A DNA stretch of 34,789 bases. Origin: a virus. Made by a program: the position numbers and the translations under genes. The stretch is taken from positions 1 to 34,789 of IMG/VR virus record IMGVR_UViG_3300009164_005523; one strand, given 5' to 3'. The notes beneath the pieces are model-generated. The model had not been told where the DNA came from. It worked only from the letters and a program-made list of their open reading frames with translations, and did no database searches. Shown in pieces: positions 3,391 through 19,428 of this stretch (positions are counted from its first letter, which is position 1; each line of letters opens with the position of its first letter).

Positions 3391-3840
3391 TTAGCCTTCA
3401 TAGATAGCTGAATTGGCACCATGCTCTGCACACTCTACTCGTACGCAATAGCAACGATCGTCAGTCTTTTCACGTATTAGTGCATCAGCAAAATTAAACG
3501 CATGTTCAGCAAACTTCTCTGCACCCACACCATCAAAGATTCTAATCTCTGCTAGATCCAATGCCGCCAGCTCTTGGAACTTGGCTAGATATGGATCACT
3601 TTTATCCAAGGCCAGCTTGTGATCAAAGTGATCTTCCAGCCATGCTTTGAGCGGTTTGAGTCCGCCAAAGTCCACTGCCCAGTTCTTATTGTCCAGTGTG
3701 TCGCAGCCAAAGGTGAATGTGAATGCTAGACTGTAACCATGTAGCAAGTGACAGTGACTGTGATCTGCATTAGGTTGACGGAATACCGCTGACAGACCAA
3801 TGTTGTGCCCGTAGTGTTTTGTTGAGTAAAATTTTGCCAT
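3391..3840 (-). CDS. queD: QueD-like 6-carboxytetrahydropterin synthase (PTPS family)
   Basis: Expected to convert dihydroneopterin triphosphate to 6-carboxytetrahydropterin, the second step toward 7-deazaguanine. The 149-residue product has the T-fold family features HSHCHLLHGYSL (27-38, with the probable catalytic Cys30 and His34), VDFGGLKPLKAWLEDHFDHK (about 56-75, the DF..LK...L..DH signature), and VRVECAEHGANSAIY near the C-terminus with the family Glu. Two positions that usually hold zinc His appear changed: HGH is HGY, and the earlier His is not evident, though extra His residues flank Cys30. With folE, queE and dpdA in the same window, a role in modified-base synthesis is more likely than biopterin synthesis. 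A strong terminator follows. Confidence 0.82.
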   Translation of the reverse strand: MAKFYSTKHYGHNIGLSAVFRQPNADHSHCHLLHGYSLAFTFTFGCDTLDNKNWAVDFGGLKPLKAWLEDHFDHKLALDKSDPYLAKFQELAALDLAEIRIFDGVGAEKFAEHAFNFADALIREKTDDRCYCVRVECAEHGANSAIYEG

Positions 3841-3928
3841 TGTTTGATTTCCTTGTTAACAATGACACGCAGAGTATTTAAAGAGGGATGAGCGCCTAAA
3901 GTCCTCTGCATGTATTTACAACTGTGTG

Positions 3929-4237
3929 TTACTTGCACCACATTAATGAAAACATTCCAGCAATGGTTTCATCTTTAAAATAAATCTTACGAGCATAAGT
4001 GTCATTGACCCAAGCCCACTCAGTGGTATGATTTATATCTTCTGCCGCCACCCAAACTTCACACCCAGGACCATATTGTTCCCAACACCAATTACGGCAT
4101 TCTATAAAATCAGATAGGATTAGTTTTGGTTCAAACTTTCCGGCACTCATGGCAGAGAATCGTCTTTTAGTAAAGTCCACTGCATGAGAAAACAATCCGT
4201 ATCCGGTGTGCCGTCTGTCTAATTTAAAAAGTTTCAT
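3929..4237 (-). CDS. Small unknown protein A of a tandem set, 102 aa
   Basis: The product begins MKLFKLDRRHTGYGLFSHAV and ends with an F-x-D-E-x5-F-x-L-x-W pattern (FKDETIAGMFSLMW), shared in form with the next three genes upstream. The ATG at 4237 overlaps the preceding stop by one base (TAATG), which decides the start; a longer version opening 13 codons earlier would overlap the neighbour more. It is aromatic and Trp-rich, with no membrane segment. Function unknown. Confidence 0.65.
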   Translation of the reverse strand: MKLFKLDRRHTGYGLFSHAVDFTKRRFSAMSAGKFEPKLILSDFIECRNWCWEQYGPGCEVWVAAEDINHTTEWAWVNDTYARKIYFKDETIAGMFSLMWCK

Positions 4238-4560
4238 TAAATTTCTCTTGGGGGAAATGGACAGCGCAACAACCACATGGTGCGACTGTCTTCATCATCA
4301 AAGTCAAGCCTAACGGTATGTTCTTTTCTTTTATTCTTAAACCAACCATCTTGTTCAAACATCAGCAACGTATCTAAGTCAGTGGTGTCTGTGTCCTTGG
4401 TGTATGCACTTTTATCTGTGACCCACTCACTGTACTCACGCACACTGAACCCAAAGTTATCCTTTAGATTCCAAGCAAAGCAATTGACCAGACCATACTC
4501 TTTCAGCAACCACTCTTTGATACTGTGCCAAGTCATGGGCTCATACACCACCGCTCTCAT
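4237..4560 (-). CDS. Small unknown protein B of a tandem set, 107 aa
   Basis: The product begins MRAVVYEPMTWHSIKEWL. Near the C-terminus it has LDFDDEDSRTMWLLRC, which fits the F-x-D-E-x5-[FW]-x-L-x-[WC] pattern of neighbours A and C. The middle is rich in Asp and Thr. It is followed directly by gene A with a one-base overlap and preceded by gene C with a 12-bp gap. No recognised domain and no function assigned. Confidence 0.65.
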   Translation of the reverse strand: MRAVVYEPMTWHSIKEWLLKEYGLVNCFAWNLKDNFGFSVREYSEWVTDKSAYTKDTDTTDLDTLLMFEQDGWFKNKRKEHTVRLDFDDEDSRTMWLLRCPFPPREI

Positions 4561-4572
4561 ATACTGACTCCT

Positions 4573-4776
4573 CTATCGATGCCACCTAAGGGCAAATAAT
4601 ACTGCATCGGCTTCGTCATTAAAATTAAAATCCATGTAATCTTCTGTGGGCTTGCACAGATACTTCTTGCCGGGCATGCCAAACATCTCTATGGCCCAAA
4701 TACATGTTTGATCCCAGTCCCTGACTGTGTCGCCAAATTGCCACGGGATTCTTACTTGAAAGAATTTATCGGCCAT
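4573..4776 (-). CDS. Small unknown protein C of a tandem set, 67 aa
   Basis: The shortest of the four related genes, MADKFFQVRIPWQFGDTVRD at the start and FNFNDEADAVLFALRWHR at the end, the clearest form of the shared C-terminal motif. Its start overlaps the end of gene D by 25 bp. Short phage proteins ending in a similar acidic-then-aromatic FALRW tail are widespread and uncharacterised. Confidence 0.65.
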   Translation of the reverse strand: MADKFFQVRIPWQFGDTVRDWDQTCIWAIEMFGMPGKKYLCKPTEDYMDFNFNDEADAVLFALRWHR

Positions 4777-5030
4777 TTTAGATAAAAGTAAACAAGATCT
4801 TCTTCACGGAAATGTCCTATCACTGCAACTCTATAGCCATAGGAGTATGCGTCTAACTCCATGACATAGGTCAGTGATTCTGGCAAAGCATGCTCCATAC
4901 ACCAAGTGCCGGGTTCACTTTTTTGCCATTCATATATGGGTTGAGCAACATATATTTCTGGATCGTCACAGTCAGCCATCATAAACTGATGCACCACAAC
5001 TTTTTTATAAACTTGATTTTCGTTGAGCAT
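4752..5030 (-). CDS. Small unknown protein D of a tandem set, 92 aa
   Basis: I start this at the ATG at 5030 (MLNENQVYKKVVVHQF). The frame stays open further upstream, but that part covers two hairpins and runs into the MoxR gene. Residues GHFREEDLVYFYLKW near the C-terminus are a one-residue-shorter version of the motif in A-C. There is no convincing Shine-Dalgarno, so expression may depend on the leader structure upstream. Function unknown. Confidence 0.6.
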   Translation of the reverse strand: MLNENQVYKKVVVHQFMMADCDDPEIYVAQPIYEWQKSEPGTWCMEHALPESLTYVMELDAYSYGYRVAVIGHFREEDLVYFYLKWPINSFK

Positions 5031-5045
5031 AACTTTGTGAGCAAA

Positions 5046-5094
5046 GGACGGGGCGTCCGCACACCCCGTCCCCCACTGGCTTTGTTTCAAAGCC
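5046..5094 (-). terminator. Two GC-rich hairpins between the MoxR gene and the small-gene cluster
   Basis: Stem GGACGGGG/CCCCGTCC (5046-5053 with 5064-5071), with an alternative shorter pairing GGACG/CGTCC (5046-5050 with 5054-5058), and a second perfect hairpin GGCTTTG/CAAAGCC with a TTT loop (5078-5094). On the minus strand only a short T run follows, so this may be a partial terminator or a leader structure. Confidence 0.5.
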
Positions 5095-5112
5095 ACCCGA
5101 CTCACCGGGATC

Positions 5113-6219
5113 TCATTTTGCCTGCATGGCCGCAGTAATGTACGTACCATACTTCTTGGCAAACTCGTTGTAGGTCTTCATCTTAGAGCCTTGGAAGACC
5201 AAGCCATAATTCTGTAGTGCAACCTTGACCGCAAGAATACAAATTTCTGTGCTGAAGTTATCCATAATGAAACGGAAGAAGTTATCAACCATCTCATGCC
5301 ATTCGGTGGGGTCTGGCTTGGACTTGTGTTTGATAAAGTAATCCTTGAGCTCATAGCACATGGAGATAGTCAAGGAGTAATGTGCAGACACTTCCTTGGT
5401 ACCAATTGTACTGACCTTGCCTGCCAGCACGTCGCTGGGGTTGGGCAGTTGGCTGGCAAACTTGCGGTGTGCCATGAACTTAACTGCCAGGCCTTCGCCC
5501 ACTGCACCGCAGATCAGATCCATTGCACTGCTGTCGTCAAGCTCAGGATCTGACAGCAACTCGCTGACGAACATCCAAGTACGTGGGGTGGCAAACGCAC
5601 GTGACGCACTCTCGGGACGCATGTCAAACAAATCCTGCTTGGCAAAGTTAAGGTAACCAACAACGTCGGAGTGCGTCTTCTTGTTGACGGCCCATTCGTT
5701 CCAACTGTCAAAGTCGCAACGCAATTCCAAGTGAATGAAACGGTTGGCCAGTGGCGCAGGCATGCGATAGGTAACGCCACGGTCGCTTTCACGATTGCCC
5801 GCCGCCATAATAACAACGTTCTTGGGCAGTCGGTATTCACCAATGCGTCGGTTCAGTGTAAGCTGGTAAGCACTGGCCTGCACCGCAGGTGCGGCGGCAT
5901 TCATTTCATCTAAGAACAGAATGACGATTGGATACTTGCTGGCAAATTCTTCACTGGGTAGTTCGCTGGGACTGGCCCAACGCATGGAGCCAGTGGTGGT
6001 ATCAAAATACGGCATGCCCTTGAGGTCTGTGGGATCAAGCAAAGGCAAGCGGAGGTCAATAAGGGCACCGCCCATGTCCTCTGCCAACTGATACGCAAGG
6101 TCGGACTTGCCAATTCCGGGAGGACCCCACAACATAACGGGACGTTGGCAACGCATTGCGATGCGAACATCTTTCTTTGCTTCACGGATAGTTACCGTGC
6201 GGACTTCTGATGCAGACAT
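5113..6219 (-). CDS. MoxR-family AAA+ ATPase
   Basis: A 368-residue AAA+ protein with Walker A GPPGIGKS at 32-39 and Walker B ILFLDEMN at about 100-107, followed by an arginine-bearing APLANRF segment. The LIDLRLPLLDPTDLKGMP stretch is typical of MoxR-like ATPases. MoxR proteins couple ATP hydrolysis to remodelling of substrates together with VWA-domain partners; the VWA/HEVGH protein at 1286-2581 is the obvious candidate. A sigma70-like promoter containing a perfect palindrome lies just before the gene, so it may be repressible. Hairpins follow its stop. Confidence 0.85.
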   Translation of the reverse strand: MSASEVRTVTIREAKKDVRIAMRCQRPVMLWGPPGIGKSDLAYQLAEDMGGALIDLRLPLLDPTDLKGMPYFDTTTGSMRWASPSELPSEEFASKYPIVILFLDEMNAAAPAVQASAYQLTLNRRIGEYRLPKNVVIMAAGNRESDRGVTYRMPAPLANRFIHLELRCDFDSWNEWAVNKKTHSDVVGYLNFAKQDLFDMRPESASRAFATPRTWMFVSELLSDPELDDSSAMDLICGAVGEGLAVKFMAHRKFASQLPNPSDVLAGKVSTIGTKEVSAHYSLTISMCYELKDYFIKHKSKPDPTEWHEMVDNFFRFIMDNFSTEICILAVKVALQNYGLVFQGSKMKTYNEFAKKYGTYITAAMQAK

Positions 6220-6266
6220 TATAAAAACCTTTCAGTGAGTTGAAAAATTAACTTCTTAGTGTATGT

Positions 6267-6295
6267 AGTATACGCTCACTGTGAGCGTATGTCAA
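6267..6295 (-). promoter_or_regulatory. sigma70-like promoter with embedded perfect palindrome (candidate operator)
   Basis: Minus-strand TTGACA (6295-6290), a 17-bp spacer and TATACT (6272-6267). Between and over the boxes lies a perfect inverted repeat at 6270-6290 with 10-bp arms ATACGCTCAC and GTGAGCGTAT around one central base. Such a placement would let a dimeric repressor block RNA polymerase directly. The binding protein is unknown. Confidence 0.72.
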
Positions 6296-6303
6296 CATCT
6301 TTT

Positions 6304-6627
6304 TTATGCTAAATTCAATTTAGGTTGCATTTCAGCAATCAACTCACGCTCACGTTTGTGAGCCCAAGCCTTGCCACGACCTGTTTCCAGGATGAACACT
6401 TCAAATGCCTCAGCGCCAAATTTACGCATTGCAGTGTACAAAGGCCATGTCTTGTCTTCTGTGCGAGCACGATAGGTGTGCTTGGCAAAGCGACTCAACA
6501 CGCTCTTGTTGACTGTGGACTCTGTCTTGGCAGTGATCCCAACGTAGCTGGTACCATTTACAACAAGCTCATAAATGATATGTGTACGGTCTGTGCGTTT
6601 TTTGCGTGGGGTGTTTTTGCAGTTCAT
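6304..6627 (-). CDS. GIY-YIG-like nuclease domain protein, 107 aa
   Basis: The N-terminal region IIYELVVNGTSYVGIT (17-32) fits the GIY-10-YIG core in degenerate form (IIY and YVG). R46 is placed like the catalytic Arg. The C-terminal ERELIAEMQPKLN matches the Glu-containing helix and P-x-LN end of GIY-YIG domains. It has only the catalytic domain and no obvious DNA-binding extension, so it may be a small free-standing endonuclease or a repair nuclease. A basic N-terminus (PRKKRTDR) is present. A promoter belonging to cassette copy 2 lies directly upstream. Confidence 0.65.
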   Translation of the reverse strand: MNCKNTPRKKRTDRTHIIYELVVNGTSYVGITAKTESTVNKSVLSRFAKHTYRARTEDKTWPLYTAMRKFGAEAFEVFILETGRGKAWAHKRERELIAEMQPKLNLA

Positions 6628-6633
6628 GTGTTT

Positions 6634-6661
6634 ATTATACAGTCTTACGCACCAAAGTCAA
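6634..6661 (-). promoter_or_regulatory. sigma70-like promoter, copy 2 of the repeated cassette
   Basis: Minus-strand TTGACT (6661-6656), a 16-bp spacer and TATAAT (6639-6634), about 7 bp before the GIY-YIG gene's ATG at 6627. The short leader leaves little room for a ribosome site. The -35 region is part of the 43-bp repeat shared with 3254-3296. Confidence 0.68.
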
Positions 6662-6766
6662 CCAAAATCTGCATGAAAAGACATCTTTTTTTGTTGTATT
6701 TTTGCAACAACTATGTTGTTAAAAAACAACAACTTGCAACGCCTGATTTGCTTAATTTTTAAGCAA
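6649..6766 (-). repeat. Terminator-promoter cassette, copy 2
   Basis: Contains the hairpin TTGCTTAA/TTAAGCAA (6748-6766, identical to 3371-3389), hairpins GTTGTT/AACAAC (6715-6730) and TTGTTG/CAACAA (6691-6710) followed by a T/A-rich tract, then the 43-bp promoter repeat (6649-6691), which differs from copy 1 by one base. It separates the 133-residue gene from the GIY-YIG gene. Confidence 0.7.
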
Positions 6767-6769
6767 TTT

Positions 6770-7171
6770 TTAGCTGAGAAACGTCAACCATTGGGTAAAA
6801 TTACTGCCGCAAAGAGCCCAAGCATTTTGCTTGTCAACGTCCCAATGATGCAGTTTATTTCTGTCTAACAAGAATGGGGTGTCGGGAAATACTCGTACAA
6901 TGCCAATGATTGCCCCTGCATTGGAAAACAAATCACTGATTATCGTGTATCCAGGCTGTAGTTTGCTGTACCATACATAGCCCTCGGGAGAGAATTGCAT
7001 GCTGTAATTGCTGTGCCAAAGTCTAAGGGAAAGTTCTTGATAAATCTTTTCATCCCAACTGTCGCTGCCAGTTTCGATGGAAAATAGCAAAGGGGCACTG
7101 ACTACCCCTTCTTTTATACCTGTGAATATCAAATCCTGATAATAGGATTTACTCTTGAACAATTGTTCCAT
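6770..7171 (-). CDS. Unknown protein, 133 aa
   Basis: The product begins MEQLFKSKSYYQDLIFTGIK and is rich in aromatic residues. It includes PEGYVWYSKLQPGYTIISDL and a central GAIIGIVRVF strand. No family is recognised. The start overlaps the end of the 95-residue gene upstream by 23 bp, consistent with coupled translation. It is the last gene before cassette copy 2. Confidence 0.65.
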   Translation of the reverse strand: MEQLFKSKSYYQDLIFTGIKEGVVSAPLLFSIETGSDSWDEKIYQELSLRLWHSNYSMQFSPEGYVWYSKLQPGYTIISDLFSNAGAIIGIVRVFPDTPFLLDRNKLHHWDVDKQNAWALCGSNFTQWLTFLS

Positions 7172-7436
7172 TGGTCAGTTTATACACTTGGAACTTATCT
7201 GTTTTGAATAATGTGTTTAGTTTAGTGGCAAGATTGAATGCATGCCCGGGATTGCTGAAACTGACTTTTTTATATTTTGGGCCAGGGTAATTAGTGAGGC
7301 TGTTAAAACTCTTCAAATTGATTGCTTTACCATCAAAAAATACCGCCCATACCCCCTCGCTTACCAAAACCTGATCAGTTTTGTAAGTTGATTTTTCGAT
7401 ATACTCTAATAGTATGGTTGGTTTAGGTCTACTCAT
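7149..7436 (-). CDS. Conserved phage protein of unknown function, 95 aa
   Basis: The product begins MSRPKPTILLEYIEKSTYKT. It contains a well-ordered NSLTNYPGPKYKKVSFSNPG segment, which looks conserved although I cannot name a family. The Lys-rich loop could contact nucleic acid, but that is only inference. Upstream is a GCTAAATA motif (7458-7465), a possible late promoter. Confidence 0.7.
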   Translation of the reverse strand: MSRPKPTILLEYIEKSTYKTDQVLVSEGVWAVFFDGKAINLKSFNSLTNYPGPKYKKVSFSNPGHAFNLATKLNTLFKTDKFQVYKLTNGTIVQE

Positions 7437-7457
7437 TTTTCAATTCTCTGCTACTAT

Positions 7458-7465
7458 TATTTAGC
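7458..7465 (-). promoter_or_regulatory. Possible late-promoter element GCTAAATA
   Basis: GCTAAATAATAGTA on the minus strand, about 21 bp before the start at 7436. A near copy (GCTAAATAATACTA) sits 24 bp before the small gene starting at 26712. T4 late promoters consist of a single -10 box, TATAAATA, so this could be the local equivalent. Evidence is limited to position and similarity. Confidence 0.35.
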
Positions 7466-7488
7466 AAAAGATTGATTGGATGACCAGG

Positions 7489-7755
7489 TTAGAAATCGAA
7501 GTTAATGGTGTTGCCCACAGAGTCATTGACTGCCAGTCGGCTCTTGATTAGCTCGTTGTAACCACCAATTCGTTCACCGTCTACAAAGATCTGAGGCACA
7601 CTGCGAACGCCTGCGCCCACACTTTCGTAAAAGGTTTTTCTTGCATCTTCATCGTCAAGGTTGATTTCTTCCCAGACATAACCTTTGTTTTTTAACCAGC
7701 TTTTGGCAGCCGTGCAATAAGGACATATAGTCTTAGTGTATACAGTAATTTTCAT
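7489..7755 (-). CDS. grx: Glutaredoxin
   Basis: An 88-residue thioredoxin-fold protein with the dithiol motif CPYC at 11-14, the cis-Pro segment SVPQIFVDG near 52-60 and GGYNEL just after it. This layout is standard for glutaredoxins. In T4-like phages such proteins donate electrons to ribonucleotide reductase, supporting dNTP production, though no reductase gene is in this window. The start overlaps the preceding stop as ATGA. Confidence 0.92.
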   Translation of the reverse strand: MKITVYTKTICPYCTAAKSWLKNKGYVWEEINLDDEDARKTFYESVGAGVRSVPQIFVDGERIGGYNELIKSRLAVNDSVGNTINFDF

Positions 7756-7982
7756 TTGAATGATCCTCCATCTAATTCGATTGACGTGACAGTATTGTCA
7801 GATAGTGATTTCCTAGCGTCTTCTAAAGTTTTTTGTAACTCAGACAATTCAAGCAACAAAAAAGAAAGCCCGTCTGCTACTCTTCTTGCATTTGCTACAG
7901 GAAGTGAAACAGAGGGGCTTTTCTTTTTTTCTGTGATGCCTACAAGGCTAATGTATTCTTCCAAGTCACGTTTATTCAGCAT
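7752..7982 (-). CDS. Unknown small protein, 76 aa
   Basis: The product begins MLNKRDLEEYISLVGITEKK. Its second half is a predicted amphipathic helix (LLLELSELQKTLEDARKSL) that could form a coiled coil. It ends in ATGA overlap with glutaredoxin. No family is recognised. Confidence 0.6.
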   Translation of the reverse strand: MLNKRDLEEYISLVGITEKKKSPSVSLPVANARRVADGLSFLLLELSELQKTLEDARKSLSDNTVTSIELDGGSFK

Positions 7983-7990
7983 GAAAGTAT

Positions 7991-8461
7991 TTATTGATTC
8001 AAAGTCTCCGCTTCAGATTCTGTATGGAACGGTCCCCAGAATTGATTGCGATTTAATGTCAGTAGCTTGGGGCAGAACTGAATACGGTCACGACCTTTGA
8101 CCCTAATGCGATACCAACCTGCGGCAAAGAAACACTTGCTGTTGGGTTCGCTGGTGTAGATTGGCAGTCTACGATGTACTTCGATGGCAGCATTGAAATA
8201 CGTTTCATGCTCAACTGGGTAGCCATTTAGGTCTGTGCGAATGTTACTGTAATATTCATCAGACTCTTTGCCAGTACCTGGTTCCCAATCTTTGATGTTT
8301 AATTGCTTGCGTACATTACGTGCTGAACCTAGATTTTGCACAAAGCCATTCTTGGCCAGAATGAATCCATCCTCGCTCTTATGCACTGCGGCAATTTTAA
8401 CTCCGTTGTTGAGCACTAGCCAGCTTTGGCCTTCTTTAGTTGTTTTAAGTTCAAATGTCAT
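7991..8461 (-). CDS. Unknown protein, 156 aa
   Basis: The product begins MTFELKTTKEGQSWLVLNNG. The N-terminal half looks like short beta strands, and the C-terminal half is basic and aromatic (FFAAGWYRIRVKGRDRIQF). The start overlaps the RNase H gene's stop by one base. No conserved catalytic motif is visible, so no function is proposed. Confidence 0.65.
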   Translation of the reverse strand: MTFELKTTKEGQSWLVLNNGVKIAAVHKSEDGFILAKNGFVQNLGSARNVRKQLNIKDWEPGTGKESDEYYSNIRTDLNGYPVEHETYFNAAIEVHRRLPIYTSEPNSKCFFAAGWYRIRVKGRDRIQFCPKLLTLNRNQFWGPFHTESEAETLNQ

Positions 8462-9966: not shown

Positions 9967-10301
9967 TATTTTTTACCTTTTTGAAATTCTTCTACGTCTT
10001 TAACCGCAGACTTCAGCGTCTCTGCATAGTTGAGTGCAGTTTGTTTTGGTAAGCATATAGTAGACTGTTGTTTAGTGTACCCAGAGGTGAGTATATCCCA
10101 TAGCTGCCGCCAGCGACTTTTGCTCCAAAATTCGGTCTTAGTAGTAACATAGATGTTAACAGTAACGTCGTGATCATCTGCTTCTACCCACAAGTCGTGC
10201 GTACAATCTGGATCAGTACATTCGCAGACAATCTGATAGACTTTTGAATCACCCCAGTCGTTGATCTTTAGAATACCTTGCGCTGGCGATTGTGCTTGCA
10301 T
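9966..10301 (-). CDS. Unknown protein with CxC...CxxxC-like cysteines, 111 aa
   Basis: I place the start at the ATG at 10301, inside TGATG at the end of queE, giving MQAQSPAQGILKINDWGDSK. Cysteines in IVCECTDPDCTHDLWV are spaced as in a small metal-binding site. The C-terminus is basic (EEFQKGKK). It probably represents a conserved phage family; the link to queE is only positional coupling. Confidence 0.7.
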   Translation of the reverse strand: MQAQSPAQGILKINDWGDSKVYQIVCECTDPDCTHDLWVEADDHDVTVNIYVTTKTEFWSKSRWRQLWDILTSGYTKQQSTICLPKQTALNYAETLKSAVKDVEEFQKGKK

Positions 10302-11164
10302 CAGGTGCCCCACGCATTGCGCCAGATGTCAACATGCAGTCGGGGACTGTAACGATAACCTCGTTCCAAGGCCAGTTCTGCCACTTGTTTTGTATTGAAG
10401 TGATACTGGTCTGGAATACCACCTTGTGGCATTAGGTAGACTGGCGATTCGACACCAGCGTCGCGATACTCTGCCACAGCCCTATCAACATCACCAACGT
10501 CATCACCATCGGCAACAACAAACTTGAGATAATACTCACTGCCCATAGGAACATCAAGACTAGCATAAGACTTGAATATGAGTGGCCTAATTGCCTCGCT
10601 CCACGACTCACCGCTGACTGTGAGTTTGGGACTGCATGACCAAGTAACGTGGAATCGGTCTTGGGTGGTGAGGTACTTTCTAAAATCATCATGTAGTTCC
10701 TGTGTTGTGTTAGTCTCAAAGGTTAGATTCTTTAAGTCTTGCATACGGGGATGATCGAATAGTTCTTGATAAGCACGTTGCCATCCCAGCAACGGCTCAC
10801 CGCCTGTGATAACAAGATGCACATCTTGACCATTGGGTTGAGTCCAGGTATTGTTGGGCACCAGTGCCAGCATCCTGTCAACAACTTCGTTGACTTCCAG
10901 GGTGGGACTCAGCGACTTGAACGCAGGGTGCCAACTGGCATAGCTGTCACATCCAGCAGTGGCCAATGGCAAATCTTCAAACGTCTTGTACAGTGTGATG
11001 TTTTCCCCAATTTGGTCTGGTTCATCTGTGTGGGTGCCCTTGGGCATGCCAAAGCCGGCACACTTGAAGTTGCAACCAAATGTACGCAAGAACACACTGG
11101 GAGTACCACTCCATCGTCCTTCGCCCTGTATGCTGTAAAAAATTTCTGCTATCTTAAGTTTCAT
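10301..11164 (-). CDS. queE: QueE-like radical SAM 7-carboxy-7-deazaguanine synthase
   Basis: Expected to convert 6-carboxytetrahydropterin to 7-carboxy-7-deazaguanine (CDG) using SAM and a 4Fe-4S cluster. The 287-residue product starts MKLKIAEIFYSIQGEG, the QueE-type entry (EIFxSIQGEG), has the SAM-binding GGEP at 121-124, and carries Cys31 and Cys35 in GCNFKC. The third cysteine of the usual CxxxCxxC is absent: the position after Cys35 reads AGF. A candidate replacement is Cys72 in AGCDSYASWHP. The ATG at 11164 overlaps the MazG-like gene by 11 bp; an upstream in-frame ATG adds 10 residues and lies in that gene. It works with folE, queD and dpdA. Confidence 0.82.
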   Translation of the reverse strand: MKLKIAEIFYSIQGEGRWSGTPSVFLRTFGCNFKCAGFGMPKGTHTDEPDQIGENITLYKTFEDLPLATAGCDSYASWHPAFKSLSPTLEVNEVVDRMLALVPNNTWTQPNGQDVHLVITGGEPLLGWQRAYQELFDHPRMQDLKNLTFETNTTQELHDDFRKYLTTQDRFHVTWSCSPKLTVSGESWSEAIRPLIFKSYASLDVPMGSEYYLKFVVADGDDVGDVDRAVAEYRDAGVESPVYLMPQGGIPDQYHFNTKQVAELALERGYRYSPRLHVDIWRNAWGT

Positions 11165-11426
11165 AAATCGTAGACCACTTTTTAAGTTTTTCAATTTTAA
11201 GAGCGCAGGCTGCTTCTAGTGCATTAAGATCAATTATATCGAAATCATGCATGAGTTTTATCATGCACAATACATCACCGACTTCTTCAGTCAATCGCTC
11301 TCTATTAGTGCCGCCTTCTTTACGATGGATGTTGTCAATGCCGAATCGACGACACTTACTAACCATCTGAATTACTTCAGCACATTCTTCTTGTAGGATA
11401 TTTAGAATCTCGTCTTGCTTAGACAT
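11154..11426 (-). CDS. MazG-like nucleotide pyrophosphohydrolase
   Basis: The 90-residue product has the all-alpha NTP pyrophosphatase pattern: EECAEV at 13-18 and EEVGDV at 47-52, the two acidic pairs that bind Mg2+. Such phage proteins hydrolyse (d)NTPs or alarmone-type nucleotides; the substrate here is unknown. The gene starts directly after the phosphoribosyltransferase stop and ends within the queE start region. A role in trimming non-canonical or surplus nucleotides would suit its setting, but this is inference. Confidence 0.75.
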   Translation of the reverse strand: MSKQDEILNILQEECAEVIQMVSKCRRFGIDNIHRKEGGTNRERLTEEVGDVLCMIKLMHDFDIIDLNALEAACALKIEKLKKWSTIYET

Positions 11427-11939
11427 TTATTTCCCCCACCAATCTTCCCAAGGAAAATCTATCCACACGTTGTGTTCTGCTTTGTTAACTTCAAGAGCAC
11501 TGTAATCATTGATGCCAGAGCTGGCAAGATTTTCAACAAGCACCGCAAACTTTACATTGTCTTTCCAAACGCTGTCCCAGGCCTCAACCTGATCCGGTAA
11601 ACAACCGCTTTGCCAATCATTCTTGATCCATTCCAAGGTAGCGCCGGTGTCATTGATGTCGTCAACGATGAGAATATTCTTTGGTGGATCTATGTAACCA
11701 TAGGCATCTTCTGCCATCCATAGATTACTTTCACACGCATCGCTGCCGCCATCTCTCAGAGATACTTTTAGTGTGTGCATGGGTACGTTAAAGTATTGGC
11801 TCAACATCACTGCTGGGACCAGCCCACCACGAGTAATGCCAACAACATAGTCCGGCCGCCAATTGCTATTGCTGATATCACGAGCAAGCTGGGCAGTCAT
11901 GCCCTGAACTTTATCCCAACTGAGTAATAGCTTGTCCAT
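11427..11939 (-). CDS. Phosphoribosyltransferase (purine PRTase-like)
   Basis: A 170-residue type I PRTase fold protein. It has a GITRGGLVPA segment at about 34-43 and the PRPP-binding motif ILIVDDINDTGAT at 89-101. The overall look is closest to xanthine-guanine or hypoxanthine PRTases (Gpt type), but the base specificity cannot be read. It would make nucleoside monophosphates from free base and PRPP. The C-terminus is Trp-rich (FPWEDWWGK). It overlaps the peptide deformylase gene by 29 bp. Confidence 0.8.
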   Translation of the reverse strand: MDKLLLSWDKVQGMTAQLARDISNSNWRPDYVVGITRGGLVPAVMLSQYFNVPMHTLKVSLRDGGSDACESNLWMAEDAYGYIDPPKNILIVDDINDTGATLEWIKNDWQSGCLPDQVEAWDSVWKDNVKFAVLVENLASSGINDYSALEVNKAEHNVWIDFPWEDWWGK

Positions 11940-13000: not shown

Positions 13001-13002
13001 AA

Positions 13003-13683
13003 TTACTTGCAGCCTTTGTTGACAATGTTCATGAACTCCGAACGCACAGCCGGTTCGTTTTTAAAGCAACCGCCCAGCTTGCTGGTAACAGTGCTGGAGC
13101 CCACGTCTTCTACGCCACGACTCTTGACACAATAATGTTGTGCATCGATGACCACTGCAATGTTGTCTGTTTCTAGAATATACTGAAGTGCAAAATAAAT
13201 CTGCTCAGTGAGTCGTTCTTGAATCTGTGGACGCTTGGCAAAATATTCAACGATGCGATTGATCTTACTCAAGCCCAGTACTTTGTTATTTGGAATATAT
13301 CCAACTGTGGCCAGTCCGTCGATGACAACGAAGTGATGTTCGCAGTTGCTTTGAACGTTAATGCCACGTTCCACAACCATCTCATCATATTTCATTTTGT
13401 TATCTACAGTGGTGCATTTGGGAAATGCCTCGTAGTCTAGACCCCAGAATATTTCATTGACATACATCTTGGCCACACGCTTGGGTGTGTCCATTAGACT
13501 GTCATCACTTAGGTCCAGCCCAAGTGTTTCCATGATCTGATGCATGTGGCGTTCGATAATATCAATCTTATCTTTACGCTCTATATTGTTGGAGATTGTT
13601 GGAGTTTCTACACCGCATTTGATTAAGTGCTCGTGTACTTGTTGACCCAAAGACGGATCGGTTTTGGTTTTATTGTATGACAT
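13003..13683 (-). CDS. folE: GTP cyclohydrolase I
   Basis: Converts GTP to dihydroneopterin triphosphate, the first step of both folate and 7-deazaguanine synthesis. The 226-residue product has the FolE zinc ligands Cys114 and His117 in SNCEHH and Cys185 in QHYCVKSRG, plus GLSKINRIVEYFAKRPQIQERLT at about 137-159. The length matches bacterial FolE. AAGGAAGG precedes the ATG at 13683. Its leader contains a terminator-like hairpin (13711-13736). With queD, queE and dpdA present, the product is most likely channelled to a modified DNA base. Confidence 0.95.
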   Translation of the reverse strand: MSYNKTKTDPSLGQQVHEHLIKCGVETPTISNNIERKDKIDIIERHMHQIMETLGLDLSDDSLMDTPKRVAKMYVNEIFWGLDYEAFPKCTTVDNKMKYDEMVVERGINVQSNCEHHFVVIDGLATVGYIPNNKVLGLSKINRIVEYFAKRPQIQERLTEQIYFALQYILETDNIAVVIDAQHYCVKSRGVEDVGSSTVTSKLGGCFKNEPAVRSEFMNIVNKGCK

Positions 13684-13785: not shown

Positions 13786-13977
13786 CTACCAATGATGAAT
13801 AACATTGGCAATGATGACAAAGCAAGTTATGGTGTGCAGTGCCACCCAAAATGTTTTTAAGAACAGTGCAATGCGAGCTTCTGTGCGAGTTAATATGGGT
13901 ACATCCGGACGATCATCGTCGGTGGCGCCCATCAAGTGCCCAGTGGCTCGTGCCCAGATCTTTTCTAGTCCATTCAC
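13786..13977 (-). CDS. Small membrane protein, 63 aa
   Basis: The N-terminal half is soluble and charged (MNGLEKIWARATGHLMG). The C-terminal half has one hydrophobic segment, about 36-60, ending in FVIIANVIHHW. The ATG overlaps the glycosyltransferase stop as ATGA, making it the last gene of the dpdA-led operon. Function unknown; it could hold a partner at the membrane. Confidence 0.6.
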   Translation of the reverse strand: MNGLEKIWARATGHLMGATDDDRPDVPILTRTEARIALFLKTFWVALHTITCFVIIANVIHHW

Positions 13978-15050
13978 TTTAGGTTTTCCAATAGTGGAGT
14001 TGCCGAAAAGAAATTCTCTTCTAGGTGCTGTTGTTGGCGCTCAATGACTTCAGTGAGACTGTCAAAGTCTGCCATGGTTTGTTTGATCAACATGATCAAT
14101 TGGTCTTTGTTGGCAAGATAACTATCCCAAGAACTGGTCCAGGCACTGGGGTACTTACTGTTGGGCAAGTACATTTCGCTGTAACTAAGTCTATCTGGCA
14201 CCAAAGGCATTGCCCCAACACACAGTCCTTCATAGCAACTAATGCCCAAAGTCTCTTGTAAGTTTGCACTAAACACAATCTTACTTTGTCCCAGTAGCTT
14301 GTGATACTCTGCTTTGGACAATTGTTGTTCTTGACAAACTACCCACTGGTATTCAGGCATGGCTTCTGCCAAGTCCTTGAAGATCTCCACCTGCTTCTCG
14401 GGGGCAATACGATGCGGGAATAGGATTAAATCACGCTTGGGTTGTTTAGAATATTCCAGCAATACATGCTTTAGATATTCCATGGGCCAGCCTGTACGTA
14501 CAATCTTCTTATTGATCAACTGACGATCTAGCCAGAAGTCCTCGGTTGTTTTGTACAGATTGGTTTCAAACATGTCAATGTGAAACTGCGTGGCAAAGTA
14601 GTTGTGATCAGCCGCTTCATAAAATGATTTCTCAGCATGTCTTACCCAAGGAGCATCTCCAATGAGTCTACCTAAGAAATCGTGAGGGTCATATGACCCA
14701 GCATGCCACAGTGCATGAATCGTTACCGGAATACCCAGCAACTCGCTCATGTACTTTAAGTTTATGATGCCGGGATGCCATGCATCAGTAAAGATAAAAT
14801 GACTGCCAGCCTCGACGGATCCTGAGCAAAAAAGTCTTCCAAGCTGTTCAACTTGGTTTGCCTTATAGATATTAGTGCCCCCAAAATTGAGAAACGCACC
14901 AGGAGTAGTGGCGCTAGGAATATCGCCAGGGCCCGATATAACATGAACTTCATGACCTGCTCCTTGTAGTAGACGTGGGATGTGATCTTTCCATTGGCCG
15001 GTATAACGGCTTTCAACAGATTCTAAATCGATTAAAAAAATCTTACTCAT
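13974..15050 (-). CDS. GT4-like (GT-B fold) glycosyltransferase
   Basis: A 358-residue protein with features of GT-B glycosyltransferases. The second domain has LFPHRIAPEKQVEIFKDLA (about 210-228), a common nucleotide-sugar-site lead-in, and an E-x7-E motif in ETLGISCYE (Glu266 and Glu274) followed by GLCVGAMPLVPDR. The N-terminal domain begins MSKIFLIDLESVESRYTGQW. It lies in the dpdA operon, 8 bp after the 70-residue gene. Phage GT-B enzymes can glucosylate DNA bases, as T4 alpha-gt and beta-gt do, or decorate virion or host glycans; which applies here is open. Confidence 0.82.
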   Translation of the reverse strand: MSKIFLIDLESVESRYTGQWKDHIPRLLQGAGHEVHVISGPGDIPSATTPGAFLNFGGTNIYKANQVEQLGRLFCSGSVEAGSHFIFTDAWHPGIINLKYMSELLGIPVTIHALWHAGSYDPHDFLGRLIGDAPWVRHAEKSFYEAADHNYFATQFHIDMFETNLYKTTEDFWLDRQLINKKIVRTGWPMEYLKHVLLEYSKQPKRDLILFPHRIAPEKQVEIFKDLAEAMPEYQWVVCQEQQLSKAEYHKLLGQSKIVFSANLQETLGISCYEGLCVGAMPLVPDRLSYSEMYLPNSKYPSAWTSSWDSYLANKDQLIMLIKQTMADFDSLTEVIERQQQHLEENFFSATPLLENLK

Positions 15051-15058
15051 CCCTGATC

Positions 15059-15271
15059 CTATCGATTGTTATGTTCTGCCCTTGCATTGCGATTCTTTCG
15101 GCGTAGGTACGCTTCATACTTGCCCCATGTACTGCCGGGCTTGTATAGATCCGCCTCGTTAAAGGGCTTACCTTCGAAACGGCACCAGTCCCGGTACGCA
15201 TCTAGGTCCTCAAAGATTTTTGCCACTTCTGGCTTTAGTCGAAGGTATTTGTTGTTTACTTTAGTAGTCAT
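15059..15271 (-). CDS. Conserved small basic protein, 70 aa
   Basis: The product begins MTTKVNNKYLRLKPEVAKIF, contains WCRFEGKPFNEADLYKPGS, and ends in a very basic tail (LRRKNRNARAEHNNR). I believe similar proteins occur in other phages, but no function is known. It lies in the dpdA operon, between the T-fold-like gene and the glycosyltransferase. The basic tail could bind nucleic acid (inference). Confidence 0.68.
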   Translation of the reverse strand: MTTKVNNKYLRLKPEVAKIFEDLDAYRDWCRFEGKPFNEADLYKPGSTWGKYEAYLRRKNRNARAEHNNR

Positions 15272-15291
15272 ACTTTCACCTGTTTGTATTA

Positions 15292-15681
15292 TTAAAACTT
15301 AATGAAGCAGCCATTTTCGCCGTCTTCACTTACTTCAATCCAAATCTCACGACCTGGATACCTTGCTGAGATTGTTGCATTTAAATCCTCTGCAATCATC
15401 TCACATGATTTAAAGTCAAGTTCAAGGGTGCCATCATTGTAGCATTTCTCGAGCCAACGTTTAAACTGGATAAATTCAATGTCACGGTCATCGTGAAACA
15501 CTTGAATGTAAACTTTAAAATGGAAAATATGTCTATGTGAGTTAGCCAGGAAGCTGACGTCATATTCTCCTGCTGTGCAGAGATTGGGATCTGTTGCCGC
15601 CGCCGGATAGCGATGAATGCCTTCCTTGCGAAAGGTAACCCAAATCATCTTGTTAGGTCTGATATCTGTTTTGATAATCAT
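15292..15681 (-). CDS. Possible second QueD/PTPS-type T-fold protein, 129 aa
   Basis: Not a confident family match, but the order of features resembles the PTPS/QueD T-fold: SHRHIFHFKVYI near residues 48-59 (strand with His), DRDIEFIQFKRWLEKC (like DF..LK..L), LELDFKSCEMIAEDL (like LDH..... E.LA), and IWIEVSEDGENGCFI at the C-terminus (like V.V.ET). Zinc-binding HxxxHGH is absent, so it may be a non-catalytic or repurposed relative. The start overlaps the preceding stop as ATGA. It lies in the dpdA operon, fitting a pterin or deazaguanine link. Confidence 0.5.
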   Translation of the reverse strand: MIIKTDIRPNKMIWVTFRKEGIHRYPAAATDPNLCTAGEYDVSFLANSHRHIFHFKVYIQVFHDDRDIEFIQFKRWLEKCYNDGTLELDFKSCEMIAEDLNATISARYPGREIWIEVSEDGENGCFIKF

Positions 15682-16196
15682 AATGTTGTGTCCTGTGTAT
15701 ATTGATCCCAGTGGGTATAAGTTTTGTTAGTCATGAGGTCATGCAGTTGATGAGTCCACACGCCGGGGTTTGTTGCACCCCAGGTACGGTCATCAATTTT
15801 AATAGTTGTGTTATAATTGTACAATCCAATGTAGGGCAGTTTAACACTGATCATTGGCACAAAACGATTGTGCTCACATAGTCCGCTTTCCAGTAGACCT
15901 TCCGCTTGTTGAGCGTCTAAGTCTAGGGTACACCAGAAGCCAGCTTCTAAACAAGCCTTGATCATCTGCTCCCAGGGGAACCAAGCATCATAGTTGTTGA
16001 TACCAATGTTGGGGAAACTTTGGCTAGTGCCAAAATAGATGTGAGTAACTTTATTCTCACGGGCATGAGCAAGGATCTCTTCCACTGGCTGTACACCCAC
16101 AACAAACAGTGTAAACATGTCATAGCATACAGTGTGTTCAACTTCGAACCCTGTAAAATACTTAACGGCTTGCCGCTCTTCTGTGTTTAGTCCCAT
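15678..16196 (-). CDS. Conserved unknown protein in the dpdA operon, 172 aa
   Basis: The product begins MGLNTEERQAVKYFTGFEVE. It has blocks that look like a folded enzyme: VTHIYFGTSQSFPNIG, GFWCTLDLDAQQAEGLLESG, and HNRFVPMISVKLPYIGLYNY. I recall similar uncharacterised proteins in aquatic T4-like phages, but can assign no family. Its ATG lies inside the last codons of the dehydrogenase gene (10-bp overlap) and its stop overlaps the next start (ATGA). The tight coupling suggests it works with its neighbours. Confidence 0.72.
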   Translation of the reverse strand: MGLNTEERQAVKYFTGFEVEHTVCYDMFTLFVVGVQPVEEILAHARENKVTHIYFGTSQSFPNIGINNYDAWFPWEQMIKACLEAGFWCTLDLDAQQAEGLLESGLCEHNRFVPMISVKLPYIGLYNYNTTIKIDDRTWGATNPGVWTHQLHDLMTNKTYTHWDQYTQDTTL

Positions 16197-17077
16197 TTGA
16201 TATATCCTCTATTGTAGCCGCTTGGACGATCCTTACCATCCGCAAACGCTTGTTGCCATTGTGTACTACGAGTATAACACTTTGTCCAGAACTTGTCAAC
16301 ATTAATATGACCAGTCTCAATCATCCAAACTGCATCTCTCATACGTTGATGAAAATTTGGATTACGTGGGCTTGGCCGAATGGTTGTACAGGCTTTCCAA
16401 AGTTGTTGCTGTGCTTCATTTTTATTAATTGTTTTACCAACACCGTCAATTATCAGTGCATTGTTATTTAGGCTAATATCGGCACCCAGTTCATATTTTC
16501 CGCTGAGATCGATTACTACATCATAACTTTTGGTAGAACTCGAGGACAATCGATTGTCCCATAGATCAGAGTTGCTAGATCCTATGACATCAACAGTGAT
16601 GCCAGGCCACATCATTGATAACTTGTGAAATGCCACCCACGCAAGAAAGCCACTGCCTAGGATCACGATGTTGCCATGCTGTCTATCTTTGATTTGTTCA
16701 TATGCTTGGCTTACTATGTTGATGCCACAGGCCACAGGCTCGATGATGTATCTTGGATGCGCTTCGGGAATCCACACATATTCGTTTTCACGTACATTGT
16801 AGTAGTCTGCATAGGCAGGCTCGCCTCTTGTGGCAACAAAATCTCCAACTTCGATATTGAGAACTTTACTGCCAACCTTGACCACTTGTGCAAGTCCTTC
16901 ATGACCTTGCATACTCAATGGCAGCGGACCGAAGTCACCCAGCATCATATCAATGTCACTGCGACACACACCTGTCATGACGGCCTTGACAAATATATCA
17001 GCGTCGCCCAAGTCGGGATTGTCATAAGTTACTTCTTCAAAGTAACCTTGCCCTGTGGTTTGTAAACAACGTGTCAT
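16187..17077 (-). CDS. Zinc-type alcohol dehydrogenase-like (MDR family) oxidoreductase
   Basis: The 296-residue product has the MDR N-terminal catalytic-domain signature: GVCRSDIDM (Cys38, catalytic zinc ligand), GHEGLAQVVKVGSKV (His59/Glu60), and EPVACGIN (Glu113, third ligand region). A Rossmann segment VILGSGFLAWVA follows. The structural-zinc four-Cys loop is missing and the total is shorter than the usual 340 residues. Expected to oxidise or reduce an alcohol/aldehyde or sugar with NAD(P). The ATG at 17077 overlaps the Gfo/Idh-like stop (ATGA); an upstream in-frame ATG lies inside that gene. Substrate unknown. Confidence 0.85.
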   Translation of the reverse strand: MTRCLQTTGQGYFEEVTYDNPDLGDADIFVKAVMTGVCRSDIDMMLGDFGPLPLSMQGHEGLAQVVKVGSKVLNIEVGDFVATRGEPAYADYYNVRENEYVWIPEAHPRYIIEPVACGINIVSQAYEQIKDRQHGNIVILGSGFLAWVAFHKLSMMWPGITVDVIGSSNSDLWDNRLSSSSTKSYDVVIDLSGKYELGADISLNNNALIIDGVGKTINKNEAQQQLWKACTTIRPSPRNPNFHQRMRDAVWMIETGHINVDKFWTKCYTRSTQWQQAFADGKDRPSGYNRGYIKWD

Positions 17078-17961
17078 AGTAGTTCTATTTGTTTGTGAAT
17101 CCATACATCTTGTCTGCATTGGTCTTTCCAGTACTCATCATTATTTAGGTTCGTAACAGCAGACACAATCATTTTTTTGTAAGCACTTTCTGGACATAGA
17201 CCTAGTTCATGCCTTATTGAAGATGACTTAGTTTCAAATGTAATACTACTGTCATCTGCAACATCATCCTTCCAGTTGGCAGTCAGTATCCATGAGGTAT
17301 TACCATTTTTAAATTCAAACTCACAGAAATCATCTACGTTATAAATGCCATCATGATTGACAGTGCCGTAGTCTGTGGACGTGACGTCTTTTAAATTGTG
17401 TCGTTGTTCAGCCAAGGAAAATAACTTGTCACCATCTGCGTAGTTGGTCAATGCACAGTAGTAACTCAGCATGTGGGGGATAAGGTCTCGACTGACTCCA
17501 CCAAACGCTTTGATCTTGGTGGTAAACCAACTACCTGGATTAGGTATTCTATTTTTACTATTCCACTTAATGGTTACTTTACTGGCATTACTGGCCAAAT
17601 CTCGAAATGCTGAAATTTCATCACGGTGTTGATTATTCTTCACCATGGCGATGCAAGTGCTGGGGAAATCATTGACTAGTTTTTGCCAAGCAATGTTATC
17701 AACTACCCCAGGCTTTTCTACAAAGACAATGTCGGAACAACTGGCCACTAACCTAGCGATTTTATCATGCGTGAAGTTGGGTGTGCAGATGTTGACAATA
17801 TTAAATTGTCGATGTACAGCCACTGCTTCTGTTACATCAGTAAAATCTGCACCTTTGTTGGGATCTGCATCAACAGTTATTACTTGGTAACCGAGGCTGG
17901 TCAACACTGGCTTGTACACAGCTTGACCAAATCCCATGCCTACTATAAGGCTTTTTTTCAT
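17074..17961 (-). CDS. Gfo/Idh/MocA-type NAD(P)-dependent oxidoreductase
   Basis: The 295-residue product starts MKKSLIVGMGFGQAVYKPVL with a Gly-rich nucleotide-binding turn, then VNICTPNFTH (56-65) and the family hallmark EKP at 82-84, followed by a C-terminal half typical of sugar oxidoreductases. Members act on sugars, sugar nucleotides or inositols. It starts three bases after the dpdA stop and overlaps the MDR dehydrogenase, so the two redox enzymes are co-produced with the base-insertion enzyme. Whether they act on a sugar for the glycosyltransferase or on the modified base is open. Confidence 0.82.
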   Translation of the reverse strand: MKKSLIVGMGFGQAVYKPVLTSLGYQVITVDADPNKGADFTDVTEAVAVHRQFNIVNICTPNFTHDKIARLVASCSDIVFVEKPGVVDNIAWQKLVNDFPSTCIAMVKNNQHRDEISAFRDLASNASKVTIKWNSKNRIPNPGSWFTTKIKAFGGVSRDLIPHMLSYYCALTNYADGDKLFSLAEQRHNLKDVTSTDYGTVNHDGIYNVDDFCEFEFKNGNTSWILTANWKDDVADDSSITFETKSSSIRHELGLCPESAYKKMIVSAVTNLNNDEYWKDQCRQDVWIHKQIELL

Positions 17962-17964
17962 AGC

Positions 17965-19428
17965 TTACTCGAAGAAGTTGTTGTAGGAGGTTGTTGCGTT
18001 GAGAGTTTTTTTGCCAATATAACCACGTGTACCGACAATGCTCATCCAGTATCTGCTGTATTCTTCCACCAATTGATCTGCACGACCACGGTCGCTGGTG
18101 GCAAAGATATCTTCAACAATATCTCGGAAGAATTTTAAGTCGCCTTCTGTTTGAACTAGCATGCTAGGTTTAGCACCTGCATCATATTGTCTATTGGCTT
18201 CTTGCACTGCGTAAAGGTGTGTCCACACATTGTGACCCATTTGTATGGCATAGCTAAAACTATCCCAGCTAGTCTTGCCTTCCTTGCCAATTTTATTTAG
18301 ATCACCGGGTGCATAGATACAAATGTCTTTCATTGCAGTGCGTTGTATAATGGGACTGTTGATAAAATTAGGAAACTGTCCATCTTGCATCACTGCATCA
18401 CGGAAGCGACGAGTGTCGGAGGAATACTTTTTATCATCAACACTGGGGCTCATGCGATAACTCCACTTTTGTTGATCAGTGGTGTCTACTTCGTAATATA
18501 TCTGACCATTTGCTGTGGCCAAGAATGGACTTGCACAGTCAAAGCTGATGGTGAAGTTTTCGTTGTGATGTTTGCGAACAGCACGTTGGACATCTGTCAG
18601 CAAGGTTGCCCACTCTAGTTTACTAGTGCCCAAGAAGTGCATCCAGTCGTGAATGCCTTTTTCCAACAAGTTGTCGAATCTAAGAGCAACAAGACGTTTG
18701 AGTGTCAGGTGAATGTCACACATGTTCTGGCCGCCCATGGCCCAACCATTGAAGTGGCGACCTGGATACTGCTTGGGATCGCAGTACTTCTTCATGTGCT
18801 GATACCAACCATCTGCATCAGTGTGATTCTCGCCTTGGAGAACGTTTAGGAATTTACAGTTACCGTTACGATTATTAATGAACCAATCATTGTTAATAAA
18901 CGTACCTTGCACGGCTTCGTCATAGGTAGTGATGCCTGTGGCCTTTTGTCCAGCAGGACTACGAGCGACCCAAGCTGGAATATCAAGTCCCATGCCATAG
19001 TCCATGTAGGCATCCATCCACGTCAGTACTTGTTCACGCTTCTTCTGTGCCTTGGGACAGTTGGGGTCTTTCCAATTGCCTTCCCACACGCCTTTACCAA
19101 TTTGGAATCCGCCTGAGTCACCCAGCAAAAATGTATTTGCTCGGTCTCTGTTGCGGATCATGTCTTCCTTGGGAGAGTGCTTGTTGACATCTAATTCAGC
19201 ATGTCCTGCCGAGTACAAACTCCACTTGTATGTAAAGTATCCTTGATCAGCATTGAGCCAATTCATTCCCTCTACACCATGTTCAAAGTCTGCAGGTATG
19301 CGAGCAGGGTCGACATAGGTAGGATCGTGTCGTTGCTTGCCCACATACGTGGCGTAGAAACCGCTGAGGGCTGGCAAAAAGACTGCGTAGTCACTTTGCA
19401 AAGCGGTTAAGTTATCTTTATCGAACAT
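17965..19428 (-). CDS. dpdA: DpdA-like DNA 7-deazaguanine transglycosylase (TGT family)
   Basis: A tRNA-guanine transglycosylase homologue of the DpdA kind, which exchanges guanine in phage DNA for a 7-deazaguanine base. In 487 residues the TGT landmarks are visible in order: LLGDSGGFQIG (101-111, catalytic-base Asp104), LNVLQGE (194-200, like the TGT GIVQGG), GWAMGG (228-233, like GLAVGE), and SFDCASPF (295-302, probable nucleophile Asp297). The C-terminal zinc site and RNA-binding part of tRNA TGTs are not recognisable. No Shine-Dalgarno precedes the ATG at 19428, and the promoter upstream would start transcription at about that ATG. It heads an operon of eight genes. Confidence 0.87.
   Translation of the reverse strand: MFDKDNLTALQSDYAVFLPALSGFYATYVGKQRHDPTYVDPARIPADFEHGVEGMNWLNADQGYFTYKWSLYSAGHAELDVNKHSPKEDMIRNRDRANTFLLGDSGGFQIGKGVWEGNWKDPNCPKAQKKREQVLTWMDAYMDYGMGLDIPAWVARSPAGQKATGITTYDEAVQGTFINNDWFINNRNGNCKFLNVLQGENHTDADGWYQHMKKYCDPKQYPGRHFNGWAMGGQNMCDIHLTLKRLVALRFDNLLEKGIHDWMHFLGTSKLEWATLLTDVQRAVRKHHNENFTISFDCASPFLATANGQIYYEVDTTDQQKWSYRMSPSVDDKKYSSDTRRFRDAVMQDGQFPNFINSPIIQRTAMKDICIYAPGDLNKIGKEGKTSWDSFSYAIQMGHNVWTHLYAVQEANRQYDAGAKPSMLVQTEGDLKFFRDIVEDIFATSDRGRADQLVEEYSRYWMSIVGTRGYIGKKTLNATTSYNNFFE

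Follow-up and report, generated by a model that had tools for sequence, protein, structure and literature searches.

A phage gene cluster that may glycosylate 7-deazaguanine in DNA: a new DpdA-like subfamily, a constant glycosyltransferase partner and no QueC

Introduction

The virus record IMGVR_UViG_3300009164_005523 of IMG/VR is a fragment of 34,789 bases and not a full genome; this whole stretch is referred to below as the window. Positions 3391 to 19428 hold a gene cluster that is well supported as a 7-deazaguanine DNA-modification pathway, as the FolE, QueD and QueE families are encoded there together with a DpdA-like transglycosylase. A preliminary description of this DNA had claimed such a pathway from four genes (QueD-like at 3391, QueE-like at 10301, FolE at 13003 and DpdA at 17965). 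All four proved to be real open reading frames (ORFs) at these coordinates on the minus strand, on which the other genes of the cluster also lie. Two genes between DpdA and FolE had been passed over, namely a glycosyltransferase (GT) at 13974 and a further protein at 15292. Comparisons of sequence or fold identified the products of the cluster as FolE, QueE-like, QueD-like and DpdA-like proteins, a GT with a GT4-type fold and, for 15292, a second protein with the QueD fold. No match to the window was found by megablast among 50,697 phages. The synteny of its polymerase, clamp and exonuclease genes places it closest to the Pseudomonas jumbo phage PA5oct.

Base-synthesis genes and the absence of QueC

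The profile searches proposed in the preliminary description gave an uneven picture, in which FolE was recovered as an equivalog, QueD and QueE were recognized as PHROG families but stayed under the NCBIfam equivalog cut-offs, and DpdA had no family model. FolE, the GTP cyclohydrolase I (13003..13683), scored 330 bits with the NCBIfam equivalog NF006824, whose cut-off is 202. The QueE-like radical SAM protein (10301..11194) belongs to phrog_2076 "QueE-like" (E 9.6e-52) and matches all five NCBIfam QueE models weakly. Its start is likely the ATG at 11164, since the family match begins there, and within 10301-11164 three cysteines align with those of other phage QueE proteins. It is a variant form in which an insert of about 40 residues or longer separates the second aligned cysteine from the third; the insert before the third cysteine is common to the window, Xanthomonas phage X1, Synechococcus phage BUCT-ZZ01 and Aeromonas phage Ahp1. 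The QueD-like PTPS-family protein (3391..3840) belongs to phrog_2389 "QueD-like" (E 9.8e-39; PTPS E 1.2e-13) and reaches 34 bits with the QueD equivalog model, against a cut-off of 89. It keeps the C, DH and E residues, and with them the catalytic triad, and two of the three zinc-ligand positions differ from E. coli QueD.

As the preliminary description had stated, QueC is not seen in the 34.8 kb window, and most relatives lack it too. It is absent from all five complete GT-bearing isolates (PA5oct, Phosso, Acidovorax phage ACP17, X1 and BUCT-ZZ01), each of which has QueD, and from 11 of the 12 long relative contigs. The QueC matches in one relative, G005, look like TilS and were set aside. 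A real QueC is present, along with QueF, in Vibrio phage 2.275.O, whose DpdA belongs to the window family; a search within 12 kb of this DpdA gave no homologue of the GT or of 15292.

The DpdA-like transglycosylase

The 487-residue protein encoded at 17965..19428 had no match in Pfam, PHROGs or NCBIfam, and phmmer and hmmsearch against the PDB returned chance matches only. The motifs DSGGFQ, GW[AS]MGG (GWAMGG in the window) and [FY]DCASP (FDCASP in the window) are present in 80 of 80 relatives, and the catalytic Asp of the DpdA/TGT superfamily in the DSGG and FD motifs is kept in every one. The TGT zinc motif CxCxxC..H occurs in none of the 80, while the E. coli TGT used as a control has it. 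Vibrio phage nt-1, in which DpdA2 was defined, is reported to contain dPreQ0 (PMC6884629). By hhalign, the 17965 family and nt-1-type DpdA2 share an alignment of 191 columns that starts at DSGGFQ and extends as far as the nucleophile region (E 2.9e-7, probability 93). Its alignment with E. coli TGT has the FDC nucleophile motif in register, with FDCASPFLATANGQIY of the family placed onto FDCVMPTRNARNGHLFV of the enzyme; the E-value was 1.4e-3, and as E. coli TGT was used as a single sequence, which is a weaker profile, this value cannot be compared strictly with the one for DpdA2. A grouping of DpdA with tRNA TGTs, which the preliminary description had named as an outcome that would overturn its proposal, was not observed, as the protein is closer to DpdA2 than to E. 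coli tRNA TGT and its relatives lack the TGT zinc motif.

Because the motifs are invariant, the zinc motif is absent and the profile matches DpdA2, protein 17965 is concluded, at the level of sequence, to be a predicted transglycosylase of the TGT superfamily that represents a new subfamily of DpdA. It could not be assigned to the DpdA2 subfamily by BLAST, as tblastn searches from 17965 and from nt-1 DpdA2 list different phages. Its relatives are plentiful in IMG/VR (at least 599 contig stretches). Among the 50,697 phage records, there are 13, every one annotated as "hypothetical protein", and they belong to PA5oct-like Pseudomonas jumbo phages, Vibrio phage 2.275.O and Sinorhizobium phage Phosso. 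A scan of IMG/VR for DpdA with PA5oct-based patterns found nothing.

The glycosyltransferase and the second QueD-fold protein

The constant partner of DpdA is a GT4-type GT-B glycosyltransferase of 358 residues (13974..15050). The E-x7-E motif (E266/E274) and R214/K219 are invariant in its family alignment. Its AlphaFold2 (AF2) model has a pLDDT of 78.8, and the top Foldseek matches of the model are GT4-type retaining enzymes (glycogen synthase and BshA; prob 1.00), so that the protein combines the GT-B fold with E-x7-E. Its score with Pfam PF00534 was 17.0 bits, below the curated cut-off of 26.4. A relationship to the tRNA-queuosine mannosyltransferase (QTMAN/GTDC1) was considered, was unsupported by Pfam and PDB searches and was dropped. 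GT matches in Erwinia phage Ep032 and Xanthomonas phage PhiXhv (25%) were treated as another GT family because the genes around that of PhiXhv are of a hexosamine type and no DpdA was found.

Protein 15292 (15292..15681; 129 residues) belongs to phrog_17812, a family with no annotated function, and is probably an enzyme that tailors 7-deazaguanine. Its AF2 model (pLDDT 90.2) has a bb-aa-bb topology, and the best PDB match by Foldseek is E. coli QueD (prob 1.00, TM 0.62-0.71). H23, H49, H51 and E119 are invariant in the family alignment; by comparison with E. coli QueD, the protein thus has the three zinc-binding histidines and the anchor glutamate of the T-fold. The Cys/Asp/His catalytic triad of QueD is not conserved in the alignment, and 15292 was therefore not filed as QueD. 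The two QueD-fold proteins of the window are reciprocal, as 3391 has the triad with altered zinc ligands and 15292 has the zinc histidines and the glutamate without the triad.

Homologues of 15292 also occur in phages without the GT. In Cellulophaga phage phiST, Chryseobacterium phage MA9V-3, Rhizobium phage RHph_I1_18, Aeromonas phage Ahp1 and Vibrio phage D479, each has FolE and a TGT-like ORF in its vicinity; that of Vibrio phage Bakedbeans also lies near FolE, and no TGT-like ORF was identified there. Faecalibacterium phage Roos, again without the GT, has a 15292-like gene beside a TGT-family (DpdA-type) gene and a Vut_1 transporter, and tblastn detected no FolE, QueD or QueE in its complete genome. 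Because a 15292-like gene occurs there without detected synthesis genes, Roos speaks for a 7-deazapurine as the substrate of 15292 and against a role of the protein in the QueD step. Our leading guess is a zinc-dependent decarboxylation of 7-carboxy-7-deazaguanine (CDG) to 7-deazaguanine. A CDG decarboxylase, DpdL, was reportedly proposed by Cui et al. in Nucleic Acids Research in 2023, and 15292 may belong to that family.

Linkage of the cluster in phages

Two GT-led scans of IMG/VR gave 160 loci. DpdA and 15292 are both present in all 118 loci that extend 6 kb or more upstream of the GT, and among the 89 loci with 6 kb downstream, FolE is found in 84 and QueE in 86. Counted from the side of DpdA, 47 loci extend 4 kb or more downstream, and all 47 have the GT, 15292 and the gene at 15678. 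The 21 of 160 GT loci that seemed to lack DpdA were rejected as exceptions, as they are cut by contig ends; in L120, the DpdA position would lie beyond the edge. The GT occurs in 20 of the 50,697 phage records, and 16 of these 20 carry DpdA, where about 0.03 would be expected by chance from record counts with relatedness ignored.

Independent evidence for the linkage comes from its recurrence across lineages, that is, in Phosso, in PA5oct and in ACP17, X1 and BUCT-ZZ01. In Phosso, the GT, 15292, FolE and QueE lie together 170 kb from DpdA. In ACP17, X1 and BUCT-ZZ01, it is a DpdA2-type gene, and not a DpdA of the window type, that has the GT and 15292 at its flanks. ThyA-family genes are the source of hydroxymethyl-pyrimidines in T4. 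No gene of the ThyA/dCMP-hydroxymethylase family is present in ACP17, X1 or BUCT-ZZ01, and because of this it is unlikely that the GT of these phages serves hydroxymethyl-pyrimidines. On a contig of a Flavobacterium metagenome-assembled genome (L285:4755-8398), a TGT-like ORF ("MIDSGAFTLF") is followed within 4 kb by 15292-like, GT, QueD, QueE and FolE genes; this ORF is possibly a further TGT-like type.

In the lineages inspected, the cluster without QueC is coupled to 15292 and, in most of them, also to the GT. Because of this coupling, the pathway probably does not end with plain CDG or preQ0. The preliminary description had expected CDG itself, or preQ0 made with a host QueC. Its account of a cluster without QueC stands, and it was incomplete in leaving out 15292 and the GT.

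Cassettes in bacteria

The GT is rare in prokaryotes, with only 11 loci among 84,980 genomes; in a sample of about 780 genomes, it was found in two, and both were the query genomes. In four alphaproteobacteria (Azospirillum isscasi, Devosia naphthalenivorans, Pelagibacterium luteolum and a Rhizobiales isolate), DpdA, a Vut_1/YhhQ-type transporter and the GT lie within about 4 kb as three-gene cassettes (L280:7484-10685, L281:6078-9041, L282:5847-9056 and L283:131-3250). The Vut_1 score of the transporter is above the curated cut-off in three cassettes and just below it in one. The DpdA motifs are retained, except for DSGGY in place of DSGGF in the Devosia protein. No FolE, QueD, QueE or 15292 was found near the four cassettes, and three of the four host genomes have a real QueC of their own. 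Recombinase-like ORFs lie near three of the four. The cassettes probably import the base and are possibly bacterial DNA-modification islands. As they lack FolE, QueD, QueE and 15292, DpdA and the GT appear to be the constant pair, and the supply of the base varies.

Proposed pathway and alternative explanations

The cluster is best explained as a DNA hypermodification cluster in which DpdA inserts a 7-deazaguanine and GT 13974 adds a sugar to it, and this explanation is considered fairly probable. FolE and QueD 3391 would produce 6-carboxytetrahydropterin, and QueE 10301 would produce CDG; the route from GTP to CDG by FolE, QueD and QueE is the established chemistry of these families (PMC6884629). 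With no QueC, the pathway would stop short of preQ0. The CDG base is probably processed by 15292, DpdA 17965 would exchange the product for guanine in the phage DNA, and GT 13974 would then add a sugar to the inserted 7-deazaguanine. The glycosylated base would shield the DNA from host nucleases; protection against restriction is assumed here by analogy with known phages. The broader proposal is that DpdA and a dedicated GT4-type enzyme together produce glycosylated 7-deazaguanine, which would be a DNA hypermodification of a new kind with two architectures: base-making phage clusters (FolE, QueD, QueE and 15292, with QueC absent) and the rare cassettes of alphaproteobacteria (DpdA, the GT and a YhhQ-like transporter). 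This proposal is held with confidence only slightly above even. PA5oct DNA ran at approximately 375 kbp in pulsed-field gels (PMC3936114), and the PA5oct sequence is 286,783 bp; this slow mobility is a suggestive but weak hint at modified DNA, and other causes are possible.

Several points weigh against glycosylation of the inserted base. The acceptor atom is the weak point, as bare 7-deazaguanine offers no obvious hydroxyl or carboxyl group for a sugar. If 15292 is a decarboxylase, the sugar would have to be attached by C-glycosylation or to an intermediate such as CDG; on bare 7-deazaguanine, its site would be carbon 7 or some other atom. As the bacterial cassettes do without 15292, the acceptor may differ between systems. 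Confidence in the GT model is moderate. The IMG/VR loci are kindred, so their counts are not independent. The long GT-bearing relative G007 (L272, L273) has two divergent QueC-like PP-loop proteins. Finally, a contig of an archaeal metagenome-assembled genome (L284:5189-11174) has phosphoribosyltransferase, 15292-like, radical SAM/SPASM, GT, HAM1-like pyrophosphatase, QueD, QueE and FolE genes in a row, and no DpdA was found in its 12 kb although 15292 and the GT are present; another insertion route may be used there.

The alternative that survives best is that DpdA inserts plain 7-deazaguanine (CDG, or 7-deazaguanine itself after 15292) and that the GT modifies a protein, the envelope or another base and is linked by gene order only. 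This is regarded as possible but unlikely. It agrees with phiST, MA9V-3 and the other phages in which 15292, FolE/QueE and a TGT-like gene occur without the GT, and DpdA alone suffices in known phages (PMC6884629). However, the GT accompanies DpdA proteins of two subfamilies in phages that are not related, it is paired with DpdA in the bacterial cassettes, and its link survives the rearrangement in Phosso, where it is far from DpdA and yet adjoins FolE and QueE.

The residues of the two QueD-fold proteins are complementary, and proteins of both types occur in phiST, ACP17 and BUCT-ZZ01. Such a pattern would be expected if 15292 were a structural partner or helper of the zinc-altered QueD, forming a heteromeric QueD, and not a separate step. 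This is doubtful in view of Roos, in which the 15292-like gene accompanies DpdA-type and Vut_1 genes and the base-synthesis genes are missing by tblastn.

A host QueC could turn the phage CDG into preQ0 for insertion by DpdA; three of the four cassette hosts have a real QueC, and the DpdA2 phage nt-1 inserts preQ0 (PMC6884629). We consider this quite improbable, as all five complete isolates, whose hosts range from Pseudomonas to Synechococcus, keep the architecture without QueC, and 15292, an extra candidate enzyme at the CDG stage, occupies the place of QueC.

That the genes raise the queuosine-precursor pool of the host for tRNA, with the TGT-like protein as a tRNA enzyme, is very improbable: FolE, QueD and QueE are common to the queuosine pathway and some phages have them without DpdA (PMC6884629), but the 17965 family lacks the TGT zinc motif and gives a better alignment with DpdA2 than with E. 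coli TGT, the TGT-like protein always occurs with the GT, and the cluster never completes preQ0.

Other genes of the module

The genes at 13974, 15059, 15292 and 15678 lie between DpdA and FolE and are kept in nearly all relatives with enough DNA. The gene at 15678..16196 encodes a conserved protein of 172 residues with no database match. It is linked to DpdA as tightly as the GT, and its homologue directly precedes DpdA in phage ACP17. A small conserved ORF of 70 residues (15059..15271) is found in 61 of 80 DpdA loci. A purine phosphoribosyltransferase of the xanthine/guanine type (11427..11939; Pribosyltran E 2.3e-14, xanthine phosphoribosyltransferase model E 3.4e-13) has homologues in 137 of 238 related loci and could salvage the guanine released by DpdA. 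At 24723-25773 of the window, a nucleosidase-like (PNP_UDP_1) gene adjoins a second phosphoribosyltransferase-like gene; together with 11427, these genes could recycle the guanine displaced by DpdA and adenine products.

Two optional members are inserted beside DpdA (16187-17961) in 31-33 of 238 related loci. They encode a zinc alcohol-dehydrogenase-like protein (16187..17119; ADH_N E 3.1e-9; 33 loci) and a Gfo/Idh/MocA-like oxidoreductase (17074..17961; PF01408 E 1.9e-4, just under the cut-off; 31 loci). The epimerase-like gene gp164 of PA5oct lies at a similar place. These genes are possibly involved in tailoring the sugar.

Significance and comparison with known systems

The phage 7-deazaguanine bases known to us have small groups at position 7, and a sugar at this position, if confirmed, would define a DNA base of a new class. 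In the literature searched, which did not cover several key papers of the field, no report of glycosylated 7-deazaguanine in DNA was found, and as far as could be found, it would be new; nor was a report of DNA modification in PA5oct-like phages found in that literature. The proposal would explain a large and almost wholly unannotated set of aquatic phages, the same at least 599 IMG/VR contig stretches. It also provides a testable DNA modification for phages in culture, among them jumbo phages under study for use in therapy (PA5oct, Paride and Callisto), and gives probable roles to two unannotated protein families. The constant company of the GT and 15292 suggests that phages and a few bacteria coat a guanine look-alike with sugar to hide their DNA.

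Like DpdA2-type phages such as Vibrio phage nt-1 (PMC6884629), the window encodes FolE, QueD, QueE and a DpdA of the TGT superfamily that lacks the zinc motif of TGT. It differs from these phages in the absence of QueC, in its DpdA subfamily and in the additional GT4-type enzyme and 15292. The clusters of the phiST type (QueD-QueE-FolE-phrog_17812-short TGT-like) resemble the window in that QueC is unseen in the cluster and phrog_17812 is present, with the TGT-like gene two genes away; unlike the window, no GT was found in them, and their DpdA is of a much shorter subfamily. The GT has the GT-B fold and the E-x7-E motif of retaining GT4 enzymes such as BshA and glycogen synthase, but it is only 12-16% identical to them, and its predicted acceptor is a DNA base and not malate or a glucan. 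The closest parallel in chemistry would be the glucosylated hydroxymethylcytosine of T4, as a sugar added to a phage DNA base after replication is proposed here from the genes. In contrast to T4, the base would be a purine analogue instead of cytosine, and three complete relatives have no ThyA-family hydroxymethylase gene.

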